The notes under the pieces were generated by a model, which made no database searches, was not told where the DNA came from, and saw only the letters and a program-made list of their open reading frames with translations. This document shows positions 431-18,488 of a stretch of 20,464 nt of DNA, one piece after another (the first letter of the stretch is position 1; the number at the start of each line of letters is the position of its first letter). The translations under genes and the position numbers were made by a program. Origin of the DNA: a virus; IMG/VR virus record IMGVR_UViG_3300009553_000250, positions 1 to 20,464 of that record. One strand, given 5' to 3'.

Positions 431-1303
431 TTAATTAGTTAAATCTATAATTTTGTGTTTAGGATATTCAATATTTGAAACAATATGAGGTTCTATCAGA
501 ATATGCCCATTAGGTTCTATTATAACTTCTACTGCTCCCAATGATGGCGCTGTTCCACCCAAGCCACCTCTAAATAAATGAGAATCAGGCATTTTAAACG
601 CAGGAGTTGTAAATCCAAATTGATTTGAAAATCTAACCATAACAAAGTAGTGTACATGACTTCTAACTATAACTGATGGAGTATGTTCATTATCCCAATA
701 TCTACCTCTTAAAAATTCCATATCTGCCATTTCCCTTGCTAATGCTGTTGTTCTGTATGCGAACCATCTGTTAAAACCTATATGATGAGTTACAGAAAAT
801 ACTTTGCCATGCACAGAAAATGTAAGGTAATAATCCGTCCTAGTGGGTTCGTTTCTATTTGGATCTACTATCTTTTTAGCATCCCTTTCTAAATATCCTG
901 AATAATGTACTGCATTTAGTTTCTCTGCCAGTTGTTCTTCCTGATTATCTGCACCTAAATGAACATGATAATTACTGCCCCTAGTCATAAGAAAATATTT
1001 AGGTTTATACATTTTCAAAAGTTTGGCAGCATCATCTAACTGTTCTCTCATTACTGTTGTCCAACTTTCACTGCCTATCTGTTTAGCATTGGAACCATCA
1101 CAGGGTTCTCCATTCAATACTAGGATGTGAGGATTAGGAATTGAGTCTCTAACATTGCACCATATATCATATAGTTTCTTTTGTAACTTGTTGGGATTCC
1201 ATGAACCACCTTTTAATTCTGGATTTGGTGAACATACTGAATAAGCAGATCCTACGTGGAGGTCGCTGAGGAAGAGTATATTTCTACTCTGCTTTGATCT
1301 CAA
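431..1303 (-). CDS. Calcineurin-like metallophosphoesterase
   Basis: This 290-residue protein has the metal-binding signature of the calcineurin-like phosphoesterase superfamily in order: SDLHVG (D14, H16), NGEPCDG at 64-70 in place of the usual GDxxD, RGSNYH at 108-113 in place of GNH, the HH pair at 173-174, and SHVH at 215-218 in place of GHxH. The family hydrolyses phosphomono- or diesters with a two-metal centre; here the substrate is unknown. Such enzymes occur in many tailed-virus genomes. The start is a TTG at 1303 that overlaps the TGA stop of the HNH gene (TTGA). The motif SDLH sits only 12 residues in, so a later start would destroy the site, and an in-frame TAA lies just upstream. 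Degenerate versions of two motifs leave open altered metal use. Confidence 0.8.
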   Translation of the reverse strand: MRSKQSRNILFLSDLHVGSAYSVCSPNPELKGGSWNPNKLQKKLYDIWCNVRDSIPNPHILVLNGEPCDGSNAKQIGSESWTTVMREQLDDAAKLLKMYKPKYFLMTRGSNYHVHLGADNQEEQLAEKLNAVHYSGYLERDAKKIVDPNRNEPTRTDYYLTFSVHGKVFSVTHHIGFNRWFAYRTTALAREMADMEFLRGRYWDNEHTPSVIVRSHVHYFVMVRFSNQFGFTTPAFKMPDSHLFRGGLGGTAPSLGAVEVIIEPNGHILIEPHIVSNIEYPKHKIIDLTN

Positions 1304-1749
1304 ATAAATTGTCCCTTCTTATTTCTTTGTCTTGTGTGAGTATGTTGATCTGCATGACAATTAAAACATAATTCAATTGTGTTATCTAATGGATTATCTG
1401 AATCATAATTAAAATGGTGTAATGCAGTCCTATCTATTTCACCTTTATGAATTGAACGTTTACATATAGAACAAATTCCAGTTCTAGGTTCTGATTCTCC
1501 TTTCACATAAACACGTTTATCTCCAAACTTAACCATTCTCTTATTAAAATAATTACCCCACTTCTTATGAAATTCTGGAATATGGATAAGTCTATCATAA
1601 CATTTAGAACATAACCAATCATTGGTGTTTGGTTTATGTCTCCATCTACTCCATCCTTGTGGATTCATATAAGTTGTGTTTGATCCACATTCAACACATT
1701 TTCTATCTATTGGTATAGTACAAGTTCCCTTCGGTCTTCCTCTGCACAA
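1300..1749 (-). CDS. HNH endonuclease with N-terminal zinc finger
   Basis: The 149-residue product has a GRPKG basic N-terminus, a first zinc site (C18, C21, C47, C50) and a C-terminal HNH fold: C93/C96, H111-H112, N123, C128/C131 with H132 and H136. The Cys pairs bind structural zinc and the ALHH...N...CFNCH core is the ββα-metal nuclease. Free-standing HNH proteins of this size in virus genomes are commonly homing or nicking endonucleases. No ATG lies upstream of the first zinc site; an in-frame TGA bounds the frame and TTG at 1749 is the best start. A TATTTAAATA box (1785-1794) is placed for a start site near 1764. It separates the membrane cassette from the phosphoesterase and looks like a mobile insertion. 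A structured RNA candidate lies directly upstream. Confidence 0.8.
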   Translation of the reverse strand: MCRGRPKGTCTIPIDRKCVECGSNTTYMNPQGWSRWRHKPNTNDWLCSKCYDRLIHIPEFHKKWGNYFNKRMVKFGDKRVYVKGESEPRTGICSICKRSIHKGEIDRTALHHFNYDSDNPLDNTIELCFNCHADQHTHTRQRNKKGQFI

Positions 1750-1784
1750 ACAAAGTAGTTTAAATACTCAAACAATAAAAACAT

Positions 1785-1794
1785 TATTTAAATA
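1785..1794 (-). promoter_or_regulatory. TATA-box-like element upstream of the HNH gene
   Basis: Minus strand TATTTAAATA, a good archaeal TATA box. With the usual distance of about 26 nt it would start transcription near 1764, giving a leader of about 15 nt before the TTG at 1749. A second TTTAAATA at 1759-1766 is too close to the start to serve the same codon. The element is nearly palindromic, so direction is inferred from the gene. Confidence 0.45.
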
Positions 1795-1796
1795 CG

Positions 1797-1880
1797 TCAC
1801 GTCTAGGTCGGTGGGGATAAGGACAATCCTGTCTTGTATGTTACCATACGATTTTACCCTCTGCACGCTAGACGGTGTGA
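1797..1880 (-). ncRNA. Candidate structured RNA (three-way junction with a GUAA tetraloop)
   Basis: The gap between the HNH gene and the membrane cassette contains nested complementary segments. The outer stem pairs 1797-1806 (TCAC + GTCTAG) with 1868-1873 + 1877-1880 (CTAGAC, 3-nt bulge, GTGA). Inside it, 1811-1816 (GTGGGG) pairs with 1857-1859 and 1864-1866 (CCC...CAC), and TAA/TTA extends this. Two adjacent hairpins fill the centre: 1820-1835 (6 bp, 4-nt loop) and 1836-1849 (5 bp). On the minus strand the loop of the second is GTAA, a GNRA tetraloop; on the plus strand it is TTAC. That argues for minus-strand transcription. G+C is about 50% by hand count in a much more AT-rich setting. A T5 run (1777-1781) follows. 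It lacks a T-arm and fits no tRNA. It may be a free RNA or the 5' leader of the HNH gene. Class unknown. Confidence 0.5.
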
Positions 1881-5638: not shown

Positions 5639-6511
5639 CTAGTATGGTGTTATTTCTCTAACTGAAAAATATTTAAAATCTACTTTACTTGCGCTATTTA
5701 CACGAATCCAGCACCATTTTGCAGGACCTGGCCATATTTGATGCGCATTTATATCACCAGATAGATTATCACCTTTACCCACACAGTAAGTTAGAAATGA
5801 ATCCCAATAAGTTAACGTTTCTGGTGGTAATGCTGCATTACTGCCATCAAACTCAAAAGATGTTGCAAGTGTCCACGTAGTTTTGTCACCATTGAGATTA
5901 TTATAACCTTCAACGCTTACATGACCATTTGCCAGTGTTCTAGTAACCTGTTTGTATCCTATCCATTCATTATTGTTAATCGTGTATGGGTTTACTGTTG
6001 CATGACTTAATCCATATAATTCGTGTATTATTTCAATTCCAATGTCTACAAATCCTAATGGGTTTGAATTACCCCACCTTACAAAATAGTTTCCAAAACC
6101 ACAACTCATTACATCTTCAACACCTTGTGGATTAGGATTAACAAATATATTAGTTGCAGAATAAGGTTCAAATCCTACTCCAAAATGATTGCTTCTACTT
6201 CTAAATTGAATACTACTTGTAGTTGTGTCTTTTATTTTAATAAATGCTGTCATTTCTGTATTAGTCCAGGGACCATTAACAAAAAGTCTGTATTCTCCCA
6301 ACTGTTTTATTCTACATTCACCACATCTAACTGATAATTTACCTGAATAGGTCTGCCCTACTATGGTGCCGAAATTGCCATCTGTTGAATCATATGTTTG
6401 ATTAGTTACATATCTAGGACCACCAACACCAGATTGCCAGTTGGAGAACCATTCAAGCCCACCACCTAACGTTGGATAAAGTTCAGTTATGCCAAACTGA
6501 TCTAGAGTCAA
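5639..6511 (-). CDS. Tail fibre / receptor-binding protein, lectin-like
   Basis: The 290-residue product is rich in aromatic residues, Asn and Gly and lacks membrane segments. Its length and alternating-strand pattern (for example TNTEMTAFIKIKD, EWIGYKQVTRTLANGHVSVEGY, KVDFKYFSVREI) resemble jelly-roll, concanavalin-A-like domains of glycan-binding or glycan-lyase proteins. It lacks the KKVINAD collar of the two other fibre genes, so it is probably a separate distal domain or a partner attached to the fibre encoded just upstream. The start is a TTG at 6511 that overlaps the TGA of that gene (TTGA), so translation is probably coupled. The fold call is by pattern only. Confidence 0.55.
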   Translation of the reverse strand: MTLDQFGITELYPTLGGGLEWFSNWQSGVGGPRYVTNQTYDSTDGNFGTIVGQTYSGKLSVRCGECRIKQLGEYRLFVNGPWTNTEMTAFIKIKDTTTSSIQFRSRSNHFGVGFEPYSATNIFVNPNPQGVEDVMSCGFGNYFVRWGNSNPLGFVDIGIEIIHELYGLSHATVNPYTINNNEWIGYKQVTRTLANGHVSVEGYNNLNGDKTTWTLATSFEFDGSNAALPPETLTYWDSFLTYCVGKGDNLSGDINAHQIWPGPAKWCWIRVNSASKVDFKYFSVREITPY

Positions 6512-7684: not shown

Positions 7685-8053
7685 TTAGGAACTATTGTTA
7701 TGATAAAATCTACATCTTATGAAAGTTTTAGATGACCAGTTAGATTTGGCCCAATTCTTTGAATCATAAATTCGCTGGTATCCACCATATTGAATTTCTT
7801 CTATTCCTTCAATTGCACCTGGTTTATACTGACACATTTCTTTCATAATTTCTCGCTCGACATTTCCAAGTTGCAAATCTACATTGTCCCGCTCTAATCT
7901 TCTACTTGAAATATAAATTTCATATTCAATCCACACATTCCACATTCCTTTGTAGTTGGTTAGTCTTGTCATTGTTGTTCTTGTTGGTAATATTACAGCG
8001 GAATATGGTCTAAAGAAATCACGCAAACCTGATTTAATACTAAAGAAACTCAT
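7685..8053 (-). CDS. Tail-terminator-like protein, paralogue of the gene at 11871-12389
   Basis: The 122-residue product reads FSIKSGLRDFFRPYSAVILPTRTT near its start, which aligns with ISFKAGFPDFFRPYECAIVQTRTT in the 172-residue protein at 11871-12389. Both then show strands with an RDxxD element (RRLERDNVD / KRIQRDAID), a GIxEIQY / GIKDLVYDD element and an S-W-S ending (KSNWSSKTFIRCRFY / KSDWRSIVHIKVFY). The longer paralogue stands in the usual tail-terminator position next to the connector; this copy is shorter at the N-terminus and sits among the fibres. It overlaps the 883-residue gene by 4 nt (ATGA). It could be a second neck or baseplate ring. Its last codons contain promoter-like motif copy 4. 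Confidence 0.55.
   Translation of the reverse strand: MSFFSIKSGLRDFFRPYSAVILPTRTTMTRLTNYKGMWNVWIEYEIYISSRRLERDNVDLQLGNVEREIMKEMCQYKPGAIEGIEEIQYGGYQRIYDSKNWAKSNWSSKTFIRCRFYHNNSS
7686..7697 (-). promoter_or_regulatory. Late promoter-like motif, copy 4 (fibre gene)
   Basis: Minus strand CAATAGTTCCTA, then AGTTAATAAAA. The core starts 29 nt from the ATG at 7659 and overlaps the last codons (AGT TCC TAA) of the preceding gene. Confidence 0.5.
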
Positions 8054-10701
8054 AGGTTAGGATCAACTCCTGACGCACCATACTTGATAATTATGTAGTC
8101 TTTTAACCTCTTGAGCATTGTTGGAATTTGGAAGAATGTTTTTAGTTTGTCTAATGCATCTGTTATATCTACAGTTTCTATTAATGGTCGAGTTCCACTA
8201 AATCTCCTTTGAATACTATCACTGATTGTAACATTTTCAACCAATGTTTTTACTACTGTTCTAAGTTTGGTTAATGATTCACTAATTACTGTATTCTCAG
8301 TTAATGTTCTAACTAGTCCTCTAATTGTTGTTATACTTTCACTTATTATTGTTGTCTCTAAAATGGGCCTGTTTGCTCCTAGTATCCTGTTTATTGATTC
8401 CGTTATTGCTGTTGTTTCTGATAATGCTCTAGTACCTGTGAATGCTCTGGTTAATGATTCTGATAAATTAACAGTTTCACTTAATGTTCTTACAAAGTTA
8501 CCAGCGCTTTGTTTGATATAACTTAATACATCTGATATTGCTGTAGTGTCTGATAGTGCCCTAATTGCAGCAAGCATTCTATTGAGAGTTTCACCTATTG
8601 AAGTATTTTCTGTTAATGCTCTAGTTGCTGCTAATAATCTGGTTAATGTTCCACCTGTTACAGTTATTGTTTCCGTTGCGAGTGTCCTACTAAATGCAAC
8701 AATTCTATTAATTGAATCACTTATTGTTGTAGTTTCTGTACTTAATGCTCTAGTTGCAGCAACTAAACGATTAAGAGTTTCACCAATAGTTGTTGTTTCT
8801 GTTGCTAATGCTCTAATTATTCCTCTAAGTCTTGCTAATGAGTCACTAACTACTGTCGTTTCTGTTGCTAGTGCCCTATTTGCTGCTAATAGTCTGGCTA
8901 GAGTTTCGCCTATTGTAATTGTTTCAGTGGCTAACGCTCTAACTATTGTTTTTATTTGTGCTAAACTATCCGATATTGTTGTAGTATCTGATAGTGCTCT
9001 GGTTGCTGCTAAAAGCCTAGTTAATGTTTCACTACTACTAGTAGTGTCAGATAATGCCCTTGTTGCGGCCAAAAGTCTATTAAGTGAAACTTCTGTTATT
9101 GTTACTGTTTCAGTTGCTAATCCTCTAACAAGTCCTTTAACTCTTACAAGAGTTTCTCCAATAGTTGTGGTTTCAGTAGATAAAGAACGATTGGCTGCTA
9201 ATAATCTGGTTAATGATTCTGTTGAATTTGTGGTTTCTGGTAATGCTCTAACTGCTGCAAGTGTTCGAGCAATTGATTCACTAGATGTTACTGTTTCTGT
9301 TGCAAGTGCTCTAGGAAGTCCTTTCACTCTTACTATACTTTCAGAACTTGTTACTGTCTCAGTTGTAAGTGCTCTATTTGCCACTGTCATTCTATTCAAT
9401 GTTTCAGTACTGGAAACTGTCTCAGTTGCTGGCGCTCTAATTGCTGCAATTAAACGATCAATGGATTCTGATAAACTTACAGTTTCAGTTGTTAAAGTAA
9501 CTGTATAATTATTAGAAGTTGTTAAGTGTGTATGAATTCCTATATTGGTTGGTGTTACAGTATGGGATCCTGACACTGATGGTACTACTAATCTAAAGTT
9601 TATTTCATCACCTGCTGCTACTGTAACGCTATGAGTGTTATCGGCAAATAATCCAGTTAGACTTCCAGTAATAGAAACTGTTACTGCTGTGCTTGCTGCA
9701 CCTTGTCTTAAATCACAAGTTGAAGCAAGAGAAACATCATTCTGCGATATCATTACTTCCATCTGATCTAAAACAAATGGTTCTCTTGCTTTCATCTGAT
9801 TTGTTGATTCTGTGCTAGCAGCGTCACAACTACCTCCTAATGGATAATATGTCGTCAGTGCATCAGTAATTGCTACACCTACAGGTTTTCCAGTAAACGA
9901 AAGTCCATCACCATTAGTAGATACAAATTCAACTTTCATCGTCTGAATAGTTATTGTATCTGCTCCTGTTCCTGTTGTAACACTCCAATTCCAATCCTCG
10001 GCTGCACTCACTGTATCAGTGCTAGATGTATCCTCATACCAACCAGCAGCACCCCCACCAGTTACAGAAACAGAACCGTTTCCATTTGCTCCATTTTTTC
10101 TTATTCTAACTGTTGTTGCTGTTGCTCTATTTGCTGAAACATAAACACCAAAATTTTTAAATGTGCCTGCTTTGCGCATTCTGCATTTTTGGAAAGTTTC
10201 AGTAGTTGTTGAATTGCCAGAATATCCTTGAATTGGGAAAAACCATGTTGTTGATGCAGTAGTTGTAGTAAAAGGACCAGTATTTCCTAATACACTAACC
10301 GTGTTTGTAGTGGCACTAAATATTGTGGACATGACACGAAAGTTTATACTGCCTCCTGCACCTGTGACAGTTTGCATACAGAGTTTATCTCCTGCTGCCA
10401 CTGTATCAGTTCCGCTAGTATCCTCAAATTCACCTGTAGCAGCAATACCAATACTTTGAGATTGTCCACCATTACCTGCATTTTTTCTGGTTCTAATTGT
10501 GGATGCTCCAGTAGTTGCATTTGTTAATACTCTAGCATAAAGTTCTGAAAGAGTTCCAGCAGTTTGGAATTTTATATCTTTATTGGCTTCTGTTGTTGAT
10601 TTGTCAAATAATACTCCTGATAAAGCATGGTATTCTGTTGTTGATGCTGTTGTCGCTGTTCCACTAGTAGTATAGGAACAAATAAGTAGTGTCTTTGCCA
10701 T
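8050..10701 (-). CDS. Large repeat-rich virion surface protein
   Basis: The 883-residue product has two parts. Residues about 10-390 are three related beta-rich domains of about 110-120 residues, each with an element like RTRKNAGNGGQS / RIRKNGANGNGS / DLRQGAASTAVT, then a (E)DTSxTDTVxAxD turn and a closing strand. Residues about 400-860 are about 22 copies of a 20-24-residue repeat with the consensus ATETTTIxETLxRLLAATRAL, followed by a short helical tail (FFQIPTMLKRLKD). Repeats of this ETVTISDS type occur, as I recall, in archaeal and viral surface proteins, and would form an extended rod. It follows its neighbour as TAATG and overlaps the next gene as ATGA. No collar motif is present, so it may be a neck or tail appendage, or an adhesin. 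Position within the tail module supports a virion role. Confidence 0.6.
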   Translation of the reverse strand: MAKTLLICSYTTSGTATTASTTEYHALSGVLFDKSTTEANKDIKFQTAGTLSELYARVLTNATTGASTIRTRKNAGNGGQSQSIGIAATGEFEDTSGTDTVAAGDKLCMQTVTGAGGSINFRVMSTIFSATTNTVSVLGNTGPFTTTTASTTWFFPIQGYSGNSTTTETFQKCRMRKAGTFKNFGVYVSANRATATTVRIRKNGANGNGSVSVTGGGAAGWYEDTSSTDTVSAAEDWNWSVTTGTGADTITIQTMKVEFVSTNGDGLSFTGKPVGVAITDALTTYYPLGGSCDAASTESTNQMKAREPFVLDQMEVMISQNDVSLASTCDLRQGAASTAVTVSITGSLTGLFADNTHSVTVAAGDEINFRLVVPSVSGSHTVTPTNIGIHTHLTTSNNYTVTLTTETVSLSESIDRLIAAIRAPATETVSSTETLNRMTVANRALTTETVTSSESIVRVKGLPRALATETVTSSESIARTLAAVRALPETTNSTESLTRLLAANRSLSTETTTIGETLVRVKGLVRGLATETVTITEVSLNRLLAATRALSDTTSSSETLTRLLAATRALSDTTTISDSLAQIKTIVRALATETITIGETLARLLAANRALATETTVVSDSLARLRGIIRALATETTTIGETLNRLVAATRALSTETTTISDSINRIVAFSRTLATETITVTGGTLTRLLAATRALTENTSIGETLNRMLAAIRALSDTTAISDVLSYIKQSAGNFVRTLSETVNLSESLTRAFTGTRALSETTAITESINRILGANRPILETTIISESITTIRGLVRTLTENTVISESLTKLRTVVKTLVENVTISDSIQRRFSGTRPLIETVDITDALDKLKTFFQIPTMLKRLKDYIIIKYGASGVDPNL
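8125..9500 (-). repeat. Tandem coding repeat, about 22 units of about 62 bp
   Basis: Imperfect units encode E-T-x-T-x-x-x-E-(S/T)-(L/I)-x-R-(L/I)-x-A-x-(N/T)-R-A-L. The unit length is mostly 60-63 bp. The array ends in more divergent units at the C-terminal side (8130-8400). An irregular unit near 8500 carries a 3-residue expansion (KQSAGNFVRTL). The repeat also creates a long spurious open frame on the opposite strand. Confidence 0.8.
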
Positions 10702-12972: not shown

Positions 12973-13831
12973 CTGGTGGTGATCCATCTTCCTTGCATAT
13001 AAGACTTATTGGCCTGCCATTATCATCATACCTATAAAACCCTTCAATGTCTTTTGGCAACCATGTATATTTTTCCATGTCCTGCACGTACATTAATGCT
13101 GTTGATTTAAAGAACTGTCTTCTTTGTTCCTCACAATCATTATTAAATGCCCATCTGTCCCTAATGTCTAATTGTTTTGGAGTTCTTAGAAACGAATTAG
13201 TAGTTATTCTAACACCATCAATAGTATGATCTGAACTAAATATTCCTACCTTTTGTAAAATTATGTCTTCATCTGTTGCATCTTTTGGACACCAATACCA
13301 GTGGCAATCCATACAATAACGCTGCAATCCAGGATTTCTATGTATTCTAACATATGGCCGCCATGAATTTTCCCTTACTGCGTTGTATGCTCTGCGCCAT
13401 ACTTTGCCAGAAGGTATCCATGACTTCATTTTAAATATTTGATAGTCTGGAAATCTTTTGGCATATCTCTTTAGGTTCTTCCAAAATAGTGGCCAGTTCT
13501 GGTGTTCTGGACTAGGATAAATTATGTCATCTGTATCCCATACTATTAACCAATCAATTTTATCTTCACCTGCTAGATCTAAATAATGCTGGCGCATATA
13601 GGGTTGAAATGTTGGTTTGTATCTATGCACTTCTGCATTTGGATATTTCAAGAATGCTTTCTCAGAGTTGTCTATTGAATAATCATGGTCAACTTCAAAG
13701 TTGATAAATCTGCCATGTATTCCATACATTTTATCGAATTGTTTATAGATAGGATCCAGTCCTCTTGGTATCTCTTTCTCTGAATCTAAGAAGCACATTC
13801 CTAGTGCTACTTTACCAATGCCGTCAATCAT
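12965..13831 (-). CDS. Probable GT-A glycosyltransferase
   Basis: The 288-residue product has an N-terminal region of alternating strands and helices (VALGMCFLDSEKEIPRGLDPIYKQFD), then DWLIVWDTDDIIYPSP at 93-108, where the DTDD (99-102) is a DxD-type nucleotide-sugar/metal motif preceded by a hydrophobic strand, as in GT-A enzymes. A basic aromatic region follows (KVWRRAYNAVRENSWRPYVRIHRNPG) and a Cys/His pair CMDCHWYWC. The length suits a single-domain enzyme transferring a sugar from a nucleotide-activated donor; donor and acceptor unknown. It overlaps the 88-residue gene (ATGA) and the membrane microprotein. No transmembrane segment. The family call rests on motif and context. Confidence 0.55.
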   Translation of the reverse strand: MIDGIGKVALGMCFLDSEKEIPRGLDPIYKQFDKMYGIHGRFINFEVDHDYSIDNSEKAFLKYPNAEVHRYKPTFQPYMRQHYLDLAGEDKIDWLIVWDTDDIIYPSPEHQNWPLFWKNLKRYAKRFPDYQIFKMKSWIPSGKVWRRAYNAVRENSWRPYVRIHRNPGLQRYCMDCHWYWCPKDATDEDIILQKVGIFSSDHTIDGVRITTNSFLRTPKQLDIRDRWAFNNDCEEQRRQFFKSTALMYVQDMEKYTWLPKDIEGFYRYDDNGRPISLICKEDGSPPDG

Positions 13832-14094
13832 ATTATATTAATTTTACAGTTATCGGGATTAATGAAGTCTTTTATATGATGATTTACCACTGTATCAAAA
13901 CTTAATGTATCTGCTTCCCGTAGTGTAACATAATCCATACTATCTATTAATTCATGACTTCTATCATTTTCATAGACAAGTACATTTATTATATTTTTTG
14001 AACCTTTTTCTGTTTCTTCAATTGAACTTTCTAGATGTAATGTTATCGGATATCTAGACATATTTGTAATTATAAATTTATCCACTACTTTCAT
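13828..14094 (-). CDS. Hypothetical protein, 88 aa, in the sugar/acyl cassette
   Basis: The product begins MKVVDKFIITNMSRYPITLHLESS and alternates strand-like stretches (INVLVYEND, DYVTLREADTLSFDTVVNHHI), suggesting a small beta-rich domain. No Cys pairs, membrane segment or signal peptide. I do not recognise it. Both ends overlap neighbours by 4 nt (ATGA with the acyl-CoA dehydrogenase upstream and with the glycosyltransferase downstream), so it is translated in step with them and probably serves the same pathway or assembly. Confidence 0.6.
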   Translation of the reverse strand: MKVVDKFIITNMSRYPITLHLESSIEETEKGSKNIINVLVYENDRSHELIDSMDYVTLREADTLSFDTVVNHHIKDFINPDNCKINII

Positions 14095-15164
14095 ACGAAT
14101 GCACTCAATCCTGTTATATGTTTACCAACTATCAACTGTTGCATCTGATAACTACCTTCATATGAATATAGTGCTTCTGCATCTGTGAAGAATCTGCCAA
14201 TATTATAATCAATAGACATACCATTGCCGCCGAATATTTCTCTACCCCATGATACTGTCTCTCTGGCTTTACTAGTGGTAAAGGCTTTGGCTAGTGCTGC
14301 TTGTGCATCATTGAATTCTATCTGCGATAACTGAAACATCATACATTGACATGCAGTAACATTTGCCAACATTTTTACTAATAGGTCTTGAATTAGTTGA
14401 AATCCTGCAATAGGTTTACCAAATTGTTCCCTTTCTTTTGCATATTTTAACGCATGTTCATATGCTCCCATTTGTAAACCAGTTGCTTCCCATCCTACTA
14501 AGTATTTAGTGTATCTTAATATGTCCTTGAAATTTCCTTCTAGTCTGTTGTCTTCTGAAACTCCAATTTTATCTAATGTAATCAATCCATTTTGGCACAC
14601 CTTTAAACCAAATTTATTCTTAATCTTTTCAACTTCATAATATTCAACTATGAAACCTTGAATACCATCATCTGTTTTAGCCCATATTATGGCTATATCC
14701 GCCCATGTTGCATTACCTATCCATTTCTTTTGTCCATTTAGAATCCAATTATTACCTTTCCTCCTTGCTGTTGTTTTCATATCCAGTATTCCAGAACCAA
14801 CATCTGGTTCAGTTAATGCAAAACAACCTATTTTCTCAAACCTTTTAAGAGAAGGTAACCATTTCTTTTTCTGTTCATCTGTTCCTAGTTTCTCAATAGT
14901 GCCAATTACTAGACCATTTTGTATTGTGTAGAATGTTGCAATTGATGGATCTACTCTTCCCATTTCCATTGTAATTAAACCAGTTAGTAATGGACTTCTA
15001 TCTATGATATCTAATTCTTTGAGTCCTTCTAATATGCCAAGTGGAAATCTATCTGCCATCCAATATTGATTTATTATTGGTGCAACTTCATTCTTCATAA
15101 ATGTACGTACTGATATTATAGTATCCTTATCAAGAAAATTGTTATATATTTTATAGAAGTCCAT
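14091..15164 (-). CDS. Acyl-CoA dehydrogenase, glutaryl-CoA dehydrogenase-like subgroup
   Basis: Flavoenzymes of this family oxidise the alpha-beta bond of acyl-CoAs to the enoyl-CoA. The 357-residue product shows the family's blocks in order: GCFALTEPDVGSG at 113-125 (FAD contact), NGQKKWIGNATWADIAIIWAK at 143-163 (two segments around the flavin), REQFGKPI at 245-252, FGGNGM at 311-316, and YSYEGSYQMQQLIVGKHITG at 333-352. E336 in the YEGS motif matches the catalytic base of glutaryl-CoA dehydrogenases. The Arg that binds the second carboxylate in human GCDH (SAMSVQ region) aligns by eye with Ala/Thr (IATFYTIQ), so glutaryl-CoA is unlikely. About 30-40 residues shorter than typical, mostly at the N-terminus. 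It starts 1 nt after the acyltransferase gene. Very unusual in a virion operon. Confidence 0.85.
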   Translation of the reverse strand: MDFYKIYNNFLDKDTIISVRTFMKNEVAPIINQYWMADRFPLGILEGLKELDIIDRSPLLTGLITMEMGRVDPSIATFYTIQNGLVIGTIEKLGTDEQKKKWLPSLKRFEKIGCFALTEPDVGSGILDMKTTARRKGNNWILNGQKKWIGNATWADIAIIWAKTDDGIQGFIVEYYEVEKIKNKFGLKVCQNGLITLDKIGVSEDNRLEGNFKDILRYTKYLVGWEATGLQMGAYEHALKYAKEREQFGKPIAGFQLIQDLLVKMLANVTACQCMMFQLSQIEFNDAQAALAKAFTTSKARETVSWGREIFGGNGMSIDYNIGRFFTDAEALYSYEGSYQMQQLIVGKHITGLSAFV

Positions 15165-15165
15165 A

Positions 15166-15666
15166 TCATTTTAGTTTCCTTGCTGGGTTCCCAACCCATG
15201 TAGTACCTTCTTCAATAATATCTTTAGTGACCACCGCGCCCATTCCTATTGTAGTTCTATCTGCAATCTTAACACCTTGTTTAATCATACAATTCATTCC
15301 TAGAAAACATCTGTTGCCTATTGTACAACTGCCGCCGATAGTAGTACCAACTGCAATTAAACAATACTCACCAATTTGGGTATTGTGGCCAGTGTGTACC
15401 ATGTTGTCCAATTTCGAACCTTTGCCAATTATTGAATCACGCCATGAACCTCTGTCAATACAACAACATGCGCCTATCTCTACATTTTCCTCAATTATTA
15501 CTCCAAATTTATGTTGTTTTCTTTTTAGTGGAATTTTATATTCACTGCTGCCTGCTTTTGTTTCAAATCCAAATCCTGACATTCCTATTACTGTGAATGG
15601 TTTTACCTGAACAGTTTCATGAATTCTTATGTACTCTGGTTGGGTTGCTCCAAATTTTGTAGACAT
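15166..15666 (-). CDS. LpxD-like hexapeptide-repeat N-acyltransferase
   Basis: The 166-residue product is a left-handed beta-helix protein. Residues 55-99 (VIIEENVEIGACCCIDRG..., IIGKGSKLDN, HTGHNTQIGE) follow the UDP-3-O-acylglucosamine N-acyltransferase (LpxD) pattern VEIGAxxxIDRGxxxDxxIGxGxxxDNxxxxxHN closely; H94 matches the catalytic His. The IGMSGFGFE segment before it also matches LpxD. The C-terminus (GAVVTKDIIEEGTTWVGNPARK) is of the sugar N-acetyltransferase type, and the large LpxD N-terminal domain is absent. It probably acylates the amino group of a nucleotide-activated amino sugar, as a trimer. It abuts the 39-residue membrane gene (TAA then ATG) and is 1 nt from the acyl-CoA dehydrogenase, suggesting a dehydrogenase/acyltransferase pair. 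Confidence 0.8.
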   Translation of the reverse strand: MSTKFGATQPEYIRIHETVQVKPFTVIGMSGFGFETKAGSSEYKIPLKRKQHKFGVIIEENVEIGACCCIDRGSWRDSIIGKGSKLDNMVHTGHNTQIGEYCLIAVGTTIGGSCTIGNRCFLGMNCMIKQGVKIADRTTIGMGAVVTKDIIEEGTTWVGNPARKLK

Positions 15667-15786
15667 TTATTTTATTTTATCTCCTAATTCCATTCCGATA
15701 TTTGCAAGCCAACACGAAATTACTATAATTGTTAAAGTTATGCTACCACAAATCATGATAAGAATATCATCTTTAGTAATTTTCAT
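15667..15786 (-). CDS. Single-span membrane microprotein, 39 aa
   Basis: From ATG at 15786 the frame reads MKITKDDILIMICGSI... and ends at TAA (15667), directly against the ATG of the acyltransferase. Residues 8-28 are a single hydrophobic span; the N-terminus is charged and the C-terminus is GDKIK. Its ATG directly follows the TAA of the 31-residue gene. The pattern of three genes joined as TAA-ATG supports a real coding unit. Function unknown. Confidence 0.6.
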   Translation of the reverse strand: MKITKDDILIMICGSITLTIIVISCWLANIGMELGDKIK

Positions 15787-15882
15787 TTATTTATTTTTCT
15801 CCCCTTTCCATAATAAGTACAAAACTGCAAAACTCAATGATAACATCCATCCTAAATTTATCCAATCTGTAGAATCAACCAT
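15787..15882 (-). CDS. Single-span membrane microprotein, 31 aa
   Basis: From ATG at 15882, 1 nt after the TGA of the glycosyltransferase-like gene, the frame reads MVDSTDWINLGWMLSLSF... and ends at TAA (15787). Residues 8-24 are hydrophobic and aromatic, followed by a basic tail WKGEKNK, which predicts the C-terminus in the cytoplasm. It is probably translated together with the glycosyltransferase and the 39-residue microprotein. Function unknown. Confidence 0.55.
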   Translation of the reverse strand: MVDSTDWINLGWMLSLSFAVLYLLWKGEKNK

Positions 15883-15883
15883 T

Positions 15884-16528
15884 TCATTTCCCCTCAAATA
15901 TAATCCTCTCTGGTTTCTTTCCAACTTGTATCTCTTCTACACTACGCCTTAAGTGTTTTGTTCTTGCTTTCAAATTACAATACTGATCTATTCGTGCATC
16001 ATACAAATCTAATGCAAATGTTGCGTCCATGCAACAATCTTGGTCTCCTCTAAACATTACTTGTTCTAGCACATTTCTAGGAATTGAACAGAGTGCGAAC
16101 CCTGAGAATTTCACCTTAATTATCGCAATACCATCACTTAAAAAAGTGTTGATATGTTTGGCTGGAATAAAGTTAAATGATTCATAGGTTGCCGCTCTTG
16201 GTGGATCATAACAAAGTGTGTATGATATACTTGTCTCATTAATTTGCTCCCAATTCTCTTTTATTGTATTTATGCACCAACCACTTATGACTTTATCATT
16301 TGCTGATAGTAGTAAAAATTCAAGTGCTGCCTGTGTTGCTAGTAGATCATCTGGATGTATGATAAGGTGGGTATATTCATAATGTCTTAGAAACCAATCC
16401 CTTGCAGTAACATATGCTTCTTCTTGTGGATAATATTTGAGCCACAATTTATCTATCTTTAATTTGTCCACACTTTCTTTAACTTCTGCTATGTCTCTTG
16501 GGCTAGGCAAAAATAATAAGGGTTTCAT
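15884..16528 (-). CDS. Probable glycosyltransferase, GT-A-like
   Basis: The 214-residue product opens with a strand LLFLPSPRD, followed by YTHLIIHPDDLLATQAALEFLL at 52-73: a hydrophobic strand ending in an acidic pair (DD, 60-61), as in small GT-A enzymes. Later GFALCSIPRNVLEQVMF (143-159), an acidic CMDATFALDLYDARIDQYCNLKARTKHL (166-193) and a His near the end (H192) match the 'D..f...l...g..i..d.....H' end of the fold, where the His binds metal or diphosphate. It overlaps the zinc-ribbon gene upstream as ATGA. No membrane segment, but two membrane microproteins follow at once. Donor and acceptor unknown. Confidence 0.5.
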   Translation of the reverse strand: MKPLLFLPSPRDIAEVKESVDKLKIDKLWLKYYPQEEAYVTARDWFLRHYEYTHLIIHPDDLLATQAALEFLLLSANDKVISGWCINTIKENWEQINETSISYTLCYDPPRAATYESFNFIPAKHINTFLSDGIAIIKVKFSGFALCSIPRNVLEQVMFRGDQDCCMDATFALDLYDARIDQYCNLKARTKHLRRSVEEIQVGKKPERIIFEGK

Positions 16529-16800
16529 ATATTAACCGTCATGGTTTCTTTACATTTAGTACATTCAAGTATTATGTATAGGTCATCTATGTTTGTAGTC
16601 GTTTGTTTCCAGTCGTGTTCACATTTCTTATCCTCTTTATTAAACATGGAGTCTAGTATCATAGGTCCTTCATATGTTTCTTTTCTCAGTTTATCAAAGG
16701 TTTTCATTTTATTTTTTATCATCCTGACGCGACAATCAAATATACTATGATTATCTACTCTCGGTATTATCATCTGACATTTGTCACATATCCAAACCAT
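16525..16800 (-). CDS. Small zinc-finger protein, 91 aa
   Basis: The product has a first zinc site C5-x2-C8-x9-H18-x4-C23 (C2HC type) and a probable second site from CEH (60-62) and CTKC near the C-terminus. A lysine-rich helix (RMIKNKMKTFDKLRKE) lies between them. It follows the 61-residue zinc ribbon as TAATG and overlaps the glycosyltransferase as ATGA. A nucleic-acid or protein adaptor is likely; no specific family recognised. Confidence 0.65.
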   Translation of the reverse strand: MVWICDKCQMIIPRVDNHSIFDCRVRMIKNKMKTFDKLRKETYEGPMILDSMFNKEDKKCEHDWKQTTTNIDDLYIILECTKCKETMTVNI

Positions 16801-16985
16801 TATTTCTTATCCTTTTCACAATAACATTCGTCACACGTATCCCACTCCCATGTTGTATATTTCCGTCTATGTCCTATGTAACTACAGTTATAACATAACA
16901 TTGTTATCATTTGTTGTTTATCATCATTTTCCAACGTGTATGCATACGGTGCAACGTTTATTGAACCACAATTAGGACATTTCAT
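16800..16985 (-). CDS. Zinc-ribbon protein, 61 aa
   Basis: The product has a classical zinc ribbon CPNC (3-6) and CYNC (31-34), with GHRRKY after it and a second Cys cluster C51, C54, C56. The ribbon resembles those of archaeal transcription factors and ribosomal proteins but is too short and general to place. It overlaps the 44-residue gene as ATGA, and the following gene as TAATG. Confidence 0.65.
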   Translation of the reverse strand: MKCPNCGSINVAPYAYTLENDDKQQMITMLCYNCSYIGHRRKYTTWEWDTCDECYCEKDKK

Positions 16986-17116
16986 TTACTATTATCCTCT
17001 AGTTTTAAACCACAATAAGGACAAAACTCAAAACCATTATCCTCTAGAGAATTGCCTAATGAATCTGTGCAACCGCAATAATGCTCATATCTATCACAAC
17101 AATATTTCACTGACAT
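16982..17116 (-). CDS. Cys-rich zinc-ribbon microprotein, 44 aa
   Basis: From ATG at 17116, which overlaps the end of the methyltransferase gene by 10 nt, the frame reads MSVKYCCDRYEHYCGC... and ends as ATGA over the next start. Cysteines C6, C7, C14, C16 and the CPYCG knuckle (32-36) indicate zinc binding. It is the first of three consecutive zinc proteins. The exact coupling at both ends and the CPYC knuckle make it convincing despite its size. Confidence 0.6.
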   Translation of the reverse strand: MSVKYCCDRYEHYCGCTDSLGNSLEDNGFEFCPYCGLKLEDNSK

Positions 17117-17811
17117 AAAATATTACGTCCTCCAGATGGATCACTTGTCAATACATACAATTCTTCATAAGTTAGTGGTTGTGTTATGTTGGGAATTAGT
17201 CTAATTGTATATCCTAGTTTCTTGATAAAGTCATAAACATTTCTTGGATCCACTCCATATTCTATTATTGATAATGGGTGGAATTCCATTATGATTAGTG
17301 GTTTATCTCTTTTCAGGAGTTCGACCATTCCTTTTAATGCGCCATATTCTGCACCTTCAATATCCATTTTAATTAGATTTATTCTTGGTAATGTGAAACT
17401 ATCTAAATCCCTTGTTAAAACCTTTATACTTCCACCATTGCACCATTTTGATTTGTATAACCTATGCATTCCATGATCTGTATCACATAAATATAATTTT
17501 GTTCTTTCTCTGTTATCTGAAATTGCTACTTCAATCCAATTTACATTAAGAAGTTGATTCAATCCAATATTAGATACTAATAATTTAAAATTATTTGGTT
17601 CAGGTTCAAATGAGTAAACATGCTTACATTTTCTTGCCATGAGTATAGTGAAATAACCAATATTAGCGCCAATGTCAATACATATCCAATCAGGTTGTAC
17701 TATGTTTTTTATGAATTTGGTTTCTTCTGGTTCGCAGAATCCATCATGTAAACCATTAGCCTCTTTATCTCTAACATACATTTGAAAACCTTCTATGTCA
17801 ATTTTTTTCAA
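17107..17811 (-). CDS. FkbM-family SAM-dependent methyltransferase
   Basis: The 234-residue product has the SAM-binding loop CIDIGANIGYFT (44-55), an acidic ribose-binding segment SFEPEP (67-72), the family hallmark KMDIEGAE (148-155) and EFHP (176-179). FkbM-type enzymes methylate hydroxyls, often on sugars of polysaccharides and glycoproteins, and are common in surface-glycan clusters. Full length for the family. The start is a TTG at 17811 overlapping the TGA of the deacetylase-like gene (TTGA); the next in-frame ATG is only 10 residues in, so the start is not certain. Its neighbours suggest it methylates a cassette-made sugar. Confidence 0.85.
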   Translation of the reverse strand: MKKIDIEGFQMYVRDKEANGLHDGFCEPEETKFIKNIVQPDWICIDIGANIGYFTILMARKCKHVYSFEPEPNNFKLLVSNIGLNQLLNVNWIEVAISDNRERTKLYLCDTDHGMHRLYKSKWCNGGSIKVLTRDLDSFTLPRINLIKMDIEGAEYGALKGMVELLKRDKPLIIMEFHPLSIIEYGVDPRNVYDFIKKLGYTIRLIPNITQPLTYEELYVLTSDPSGGRNILCQ

Positions 17812-18488
17812 TATACAATATTCAACTCCTTACAATACTGTACCAAATCTGTTTTAATTTGTTGCATCTCTCTTGCCATACTATCTTGTATACCAGTGTA
17901 CAATTTATTTATTCCATCTATTCTATTTTTTGATTCTGATATCCACCATTCAGGATGAATTAATACTTGCAGTTTATCTTTTTTACCTATATGCTGGCAC
18001 ATACAACCTTCTCTCCAATTGCGCCCACTATCTGAAATATACTTCAATGGTAAATCTGCAACGTCCAAAATACCCTGATATGTTTCCTTTTTGGTTGCGC
18101 CAGGATAATGTTGCGAGCATGAAAATATTGCCTTGTTGTGTATCCTACTAAGTAAATCTATTTCATATGACATACTATATCTTGAATCATAATGCAACCC
18201 AATTTCATGTCCCATTCCATATATCTGTCTTATCATTTCAATACTCTTTGGTGCTAGTGCTGAATATGTAGATGAATGCATATAAACATAATATGCTGAA
18301 TTAATACCTAGATCGTATTCTATGTTTGCGAGTTCGTATGCGTTTTCTATTGACCAATCTATGTCGTGCCTGAGTACTATTACTTTCTTTTGTTCTAATA
18401 GACCTATTGGTGGAACTATTGAATAATCTTTATCTCTTGCAAGTTGTAGACATTCTTTGAAGTGTTTTATTGTGAACCCACAATTCAA
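17808..18488 (-). CDS. NodB/CE4-type polysaccharide deacetylase-like protein (WbmS-like)
   Basis: The 226-residue product has the elements of the NodB fold: VIVLRHDIDWS (36-46) as motif 1 with metal/catalytic Asp, GHEIGLHYD (93-101) as the metal-binding motif 2 region, SDSGRNWREG (152-161) and LIHPEWW (176-182) with the late His. The RHDID...GHEIGLHYD combination with the SDS.G.WR segment resembles the WbmS-like branch found in lipopolysaccharide and capsule clusters, rather than the classical chitin deacetylases with TFDD. Probable activity: removal of an acyl group from an N-acylated sugar, which would prepare an amine for the acyltransferase. The start is TTG at 18488, coupled as TTGA. No signal peptide, so it acts in the cytoplasm. 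Confidence 0.7.
   Translation of the reverse strand: MNCGFTIKHFKECLQLARDKDYSIVPPIGLLEQKKVIVLRHDIDWSIENAYELANIEYDLGINSAYYVYMHSSTYSALAPKSIEMIRQIYGMGHEIGLHYDSRYSMSYEIDLLSRIHNKAIFSCSQHYPGATKKETYQGILDVADLPLKYISDSGRNWREGCMCQHIGKKDKLQVLIHPEWWISESKNRIDGINKLYTGIQDSMAREMQQIKTDLVQYCKELNIVY

Follow-up and report, generated by a model that had tools for sequence, protein, structure and literature searches.

The DNA analyzed here raises the question of what a G+C-rich segment is doing in an AT-rich gap between viral genes. The window, i.e., the whole stretch of 20,464 nucleotides, comes from the IMG/VR record IMGVR_UViG_3300009553_000250. A sequence-only reading had proposed an unassigned structured RNA at this locus that could be a free noncoding RNA (ncRNA), a leader controlling the HNH endonuclease gene, or the remnant of a mobile RNA element. 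We found the element where that reading had placed it, with a core of ~75 nt running from P1 to P1′ (Table 1). The setting held up as well: the G+C content was 49% in the element versus 23% and 16% in its flanks, no gene was present on the coding strand from 1750 to 1935, and a T5 run, read on the minus strand, lay beside the element. All of the neighboring genes are on the minus strand, and a minus-strand RNA is in sense with them. A plus-strand RNA, which had a similar energy z score, was rejected because the minus strand carries all of the genes and promoter-like motifs and is the only strand on which the conserved loop is a GNRA loop. ARAGORN detected 0 tRNA or tmRNA genes in the whole window, ruling out these two identities.

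Homologous copies were found in two related viruses. One, on IMG/VR contig 3300025934_000024 (L004), was located by neighboring-protein searches; its metallophosphoesterase-like protein (MPE) is 86 to 87% identical to that of the window. The other, on contig 3300018073_000033 (L032), was located via the tail tube protein (88% identical). The covariance model R1, built from the window and L004 only, recovered the L032 copy at 5872 to 5960 with 55.1 bits and an E value of 1.5e-11; since L032 had no part in building the model, this was an independent test. Contig 3300025961_000015 is 100% identical to the window over the 2.5 kb compared, and L137, nearly identical to L004, is a partial copy that stops at its own contig end. 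The covariation sample is three independent copies, all from one virus group, with one copy per virus record. Searches of IMG/VR with 16-base core patterns and a gapped core pattern returned the known copies only, and the other pattern matches were judged by the covariance model to be chance ones. Nothing was found with an MPE profile in the GTDB genomes, and blastn against phages gave a single short chance match only. No coding frame across the element is open in all three copies; a short frame that is open in the window and L004 is broken in L032.

Folded as single sequences, stretches of 88 to 96 nt on either strand were better than their shuffles by z scores of −1.2 to −2.1, and the minus-strand core reached −2.8. 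The energy alone is unremarkable, and without the homologs the structure could not have been sure; the decisive evidence for the RNA is comparative (homologs, pairing, and alifold), not the single-sequence energy. With an ungapped alignment of the window and L004 that involved no fitting, alifold gave a z score of −5.3 (1/1,000 shuffles). The three sequences were aligned structurally, by hand and with knowledge of the structure; under a 21-pair model, 63/63 cells are standard pairs, and double changes have occurred in 12 of the 21 pairs. When the partner was shifted by 1 to 3 columns, only 21 to 28 of 57 to 62 cells remained paired, with 0 to 2 double changes. The consensus fold of the three sequences had an energy of −25.3 versus −5.2 ± 2.3 for column shuffles (z = −8.7; 0/2,000). 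A second count on a model-fitted alignment, which leans to the structure by construction, gave 60/60 cells and double changes in 11/20 pairs (0/500 shuffles). Covariation was present in the outer stem, where the sequence-only reading had suggested looking for it (Table 1), and the two outcomes that would have spoken against the RNA, conserved letters with lost pairing and an energy no better than that of shuffles, were the opposite of what we found. Between the window and L032, 61% of the letters agree inside the RNA, versus 73% and 85% in the flanks, with no broken pair; because 100% of the pairs are shared all the same, the structure has outlasted the sequence. These results confirm a real RNA, whose fold persists in two related viruses despite the changes in its sequence.

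Read from 1874 to 1800 on the minus strand, the 5′ half of the RNA is CGUCUAG-C-GU-GCAGA-GGG-UAAAAUC-GUAUG-GUAA-CAUAC-AAGAC, and the 3′ half that follows is AGGA-UUG-UCCU-UAU-CCC-CACCG-AC-CUAGACG. In the predicted fold, P1 is closed and is followed by an internal loop, P2, and a three-way junction, from which P3, capped by the GNRA loop, and a short P4 branch. Each of the features previously proposed from the letters, namely, the junction, the 10-bp bulged outer stem (7 bp, a bulged C, and 2 bp), and the GUAA tetraloop on the minus strand, is present, and covariation in three sequences backs the junction and the GNRA loop. The bulged C is invariant, and the second pair of the extension beyond it is UA, UG, and AU across the three viruses. 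The internal loop between P1 and P2 sets G.AGU against a CAACCG-like strand, and P2 consists of three conserved pairs that can be extended via the UAU strand in each copy. The P3 loop is GUAA, GGAA, and GGAA in the three viruses, so that a GNRA hairpin is kept, and the innermost pair of P4 is sterically doubtful in L032, where it would close a 2-nt loop. The single-sequence minimum-energy fold of L004 departs from the consensus inside the junction; such a difference is common among junction RNAs.

TABLE 1 Coordinates, in the window, of the RNA element, its helices, and the features around it
Feature	Position	Strand	Remarks
Structured RNA, three-way junction	1800..1874	−	Homologs L004:4877-4951 and L032:5879-5955; pairing 63/63
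P1 5′ arm CGUCUAG, pairs with 1800-1806	1868..1874	−	7 bp in 3/3 viruses; 4 pairs double-changed
P1 3′ arm CUAGACG	1800..1806	−	Structural alignment
Bulged C (1867) and 2-bp extension GU (1865-1866), pairs with AC (1807-1808)	1865..1867	−	
P2 5′ arm GGG, pairs with CCC (1814-1816)	1857..1859	−	Third pair G-C / C-G / A-U
P3 hairpin GUAUG-GUAA-CAUAC, GNRA tetraloop	1836..1849	−	4/5 pairs covary
P4 hairpin AGGA-UUG-UCCU	1820..1830	−	AGGA/UCCU becomes CGGC/GCCG in L032
Promoter-like element TTAATTCTTATTTTATTT, 39 nt before P1	1896..1913	−	10.1 bits, TTASTTCCYTWTTTT motif PWM
TATTTAAATAA (1784-1794), then T5 run (1777-1781)	1777..1794	−	Possible TATA-like element of next gene and/or terminator-like tail
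Membrane protein, 96 aa, upstream of RNA	ends 1936	−	
HNH endonuclease gene	1300-1749	−	PHROGs; begins at 1749
Metallophosphoesterase-like protein (MPE)	431-1303	−	Pfam Metallophos reached by L032 homolog

What the RNA does depends in part on how it is transcribed. A virus-wide motif, TTA[GC]TTCC(C/T)TWTTTT, occurs in 22 sense versus 3 antisense copies in 88.8 kb, and 18 of the 22 sense copies have an ORF start 33 to 43 nt downstream, making it a candidate promoter of the virion-gene region in these archaeal viruses. Its sites include sense copies in L141, L030, L031, L032, and L142, and minus-strand copies near 2465 and 420 in the window. A variant, TTAATTC(T/C)TTA, lies 39 nt before P1 in both the window and L032, where it scores 10.1 bits each time, the best in 280 nt; L004 has a degenerate TTTAATTCAATAA at 38 nt before P1, with only TTAATTCAATAA and a score of about 0. 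The variant has an A at a position that is G or C in 18/18 of the gene promoters from which the matrix was built, and plain TTAATTC elsewhere was tied to gene starts in 0/22 cases. Given the motif-to-start spacing seen at genes, the transcript would start near the P1 base. On the other side of the RNA, TATTTAAATAA has only two occurrences in 88.8 kb, both directly 3′ of the RNA (window and L032), and L004 carries ATTAGTTCTTG just after the RNA, 39 nt before the MPE start codon. Because ATTAGTTCTTG lies between the two, transcription of MPE in L004 need not pass through the RNA. As judged from these motifs, the arrangement favors separate transcription of the RNA, i.e., a free ncRNA over a leader.

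The order of the genes bears on the two other proposals. In L004 and L032, which lack the HNH gene, the RNA directly precedes MPE, whereas in the window the HNH gene sits between them, and its stop codon and the TTG start of MPE overlap. Since only one of the three viruses has the HNH gene at this site, the RNA is not a leader of HNH, nor is it an HNH-tied remnant. Control of the nuclease by a leader thus found no support, and neither did descent from a mobile RNA element, as purifying selection acts on the structure in three viruses with one copy in each. The HNH gene itself (1300-1749, minus strand) is possibly a recent homing-type insertion. As a separate observation, MPE (L032:6000-6905; window 431-1303) appears to have undergone fast evolution or replacement beside a conserved RNA: its identity between L032 and the window is 37%, versus 88% for the tail tube protein, and the position of the RNA is kept.

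The main rival to a free RNA is a cis-acting 5′ leader (riboswitch-like, protein-binding, or processing) of MPE or of the downstream tail-tube unit, with the HNH gene inserted between, which we consider unlikely but well ahead of the alternatives discussed further below. The RNA stands directly before MPE, or before HNH and MPE, on the same strand and at a nearly constant distance of about 43 to 50 nt from the start codon, and it would lead the next gene if the promoter before the RNA were the sole active one. However, promoter-like elements lie between the RNA and the start codon in all three viruses (ATTAGTTCTTG in L004; TATTTAAATAA in the window and L032), and the MPE that would be controlled is poorly conserved in L032. 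Moreover, MPE relatives at 45 to 50% identity (L005, L019, L021, and L023) are preceded by other genes and lack the RNA, which also resembles no known Rfam riboswitch.

The likely host was indicated by the terminase, whose closest match is the terminase of the Nitrososphaera provirus Pro-Nvie1 (33% identity over 81%; E = 9e-58), the next matches having E values of 1e-6 to 1e-7. Because of this closeness, the virus is most likely thaumarchaeal, with a soil ammonia-oxidising archaeon as its likely host. The window also contains a cargo cluster (13828-18488, minus strand) with genes for an acyl-CoA dehydrogenase, a hexapeptide acyltransferase, and an FkbM methyltransferase, which may serve in glycan modification in an archaeal virus. 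The acyl-CoA dehydrogenase has its closest relatives in soil bacteria (56%) and is uninformative on the host. Other large proteins were seen in these viruses, including an 883-amino-acid protein (8050-10701, minus strand) that is built from numerous repeats resembling ETVTIGESLNRLLAATRAL and is probably a tail fibre or a surface protein, and two tail-type proteins, one with a Pfam calcineurin-like phosphoesterase domain (L142:463-2502) and one with PTPTPT repeats (L142:4278-5507).

Our best guess is that the RNA is trans-acting and protein-binding. The free ncRNA is the option favored among the three initially proposed, and we give a probability of roughly 0.55 to a free-standing, trans-acting ncRNA with its own promoter in viruses of soil ammonia-oxidising archaea. 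Such a small RNA of ~75 to 100 nt from these tailed viruses would be a minus-strand transcript with a virus-type promoter of its own, probably starting at or near the P1 base. Its 3′ end would probably fall in the U-rich stretch that immediately follows P1′, at which the promoter of the next unit (MPE, or HNH and MPE) would begin. The RNA would be made together with the virion genes and act in trans by binding a protein; it might serve in assembly or packaging, for example, or divert a host factor as a decoy. More tentatively, it may represent a new RNA class specific to these viruses, a discrete late RNA that works by a tertiary fold and serves, for instance, as an essential assembly RNA, as a decoy aimed at a host defence or RNA-processing factor, or as a new small ribozyme.

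Three other explanations are far less probable. The phi29 pRNA, which has a three-way junction, is ~120 to 174 nt long versus the ~75 nt of the present RNA. A packaging RNA analogous to it, a special case of a trans-acting RNA, would fit the small size, the junction, and the virion-gene region, and has an archaeal-virus precedent in the putative packaging-related RNA of Acidianus bottle-shaped virus (ABV; PMC5882107). We nonetheless regard this role as very improbable, given the shorter length, the terminase gene lying far off (L141:6442-7926), and the multimer loops: on inspection of the model, no complementary pair was kept, P3 having a GNRA loop and P4 having UUG or UG. A self-cleaving ribozyme, either a hatchet or a new class, is slightly less probable still; the compact junction and the conserved internal-loop letters would suit it, and the window copy has a weak match to the hatchet ribozyme (RF02678) at CGUGCAGAgggUAAAAUC (16.2 bits; E = 0.7), but this match covers the 3′ part of the model only and falls short of the gathering score of 51 bits. 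We rate lowest a 3′ end or terminator of the upstream membrane/lysis-like gene unit or an HNH-linked mobile leftover: the RNA does lie 35 to 60 nt after the upstream gene, with T-runs near and the HNH gene adjoining in the window virus, but a terminator needs no elaborate conserved junction, invariant bulge, and GNRA loop, and a leftover is at odds with the absence of HNH from L004 and L032 and with a single copy per virus and none elsewhere.

The RNA is of interest because structured RNAs encoded by archaeal viruses are scarcely described in the open-access literature that we found. For the present one, covariation gives strong support, the secondary structure is defined, and a covariance model is at hand; it is also a junction RNA retained while a neighboring gene diverges strongly. 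Ammonia-oxidising archaea, which are important for soil nitrification, are difficult to cultivate, and the RNA offers a concrete way into the RNA-based functions of their viruses.

Comparison with known families was consistent with the RNA being unassigned, as first described. All matches to Rfam 15 were far below the gathering scores for the window (E up to 5) and for the element with flanks (E up to 10); L031 and L032 had none at the gathering score, and the L004 and L032 elements at E values up to 10 gave noise or nothing. The RNA is previously uncatalogued with respect to Rfam and to the open-access papers compared. Its likeness to the hatchet ribozyme lies in the CGUGCAGA..UAAAAUC letters of the window copy only; the corresponding regions of the homologs are GUGAGUGGC and GAGAGUGGA, without a hatchet match in L004 or L032, and GUGCAGA of the window is GUGAGUG or GAGAGUG there, departing from the conserved hatchet letters. 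The published hatchet is cleaved at the P1 base, and its conserved letters lie in the linker joining P1 to P2 and in the P2-P3 bulge (PMC4604424), a helix order and topology that the present RNA does not fit. Membership was therefore rejected on score, homolog conservation, and helix order; a circular permutation was rejected too, since the helix after UAAAAUC is closed by the GNRA tetraloop and leaves no room for a cleaved P1. Pro-Nvie1 (FR725450.1; host Candidatus Nitrososphaera sp. EN76), the nearest annotated terminase relative, has no copy of the RNA. Although its virus is tailed and neither phi29-like nor ABV-like, and the likeness is one of general character, the present RNA is, like the phi29 pRNA and the ABV RNA, small, virus encoded, and structured, and ABV is likewise an archaeal virus.
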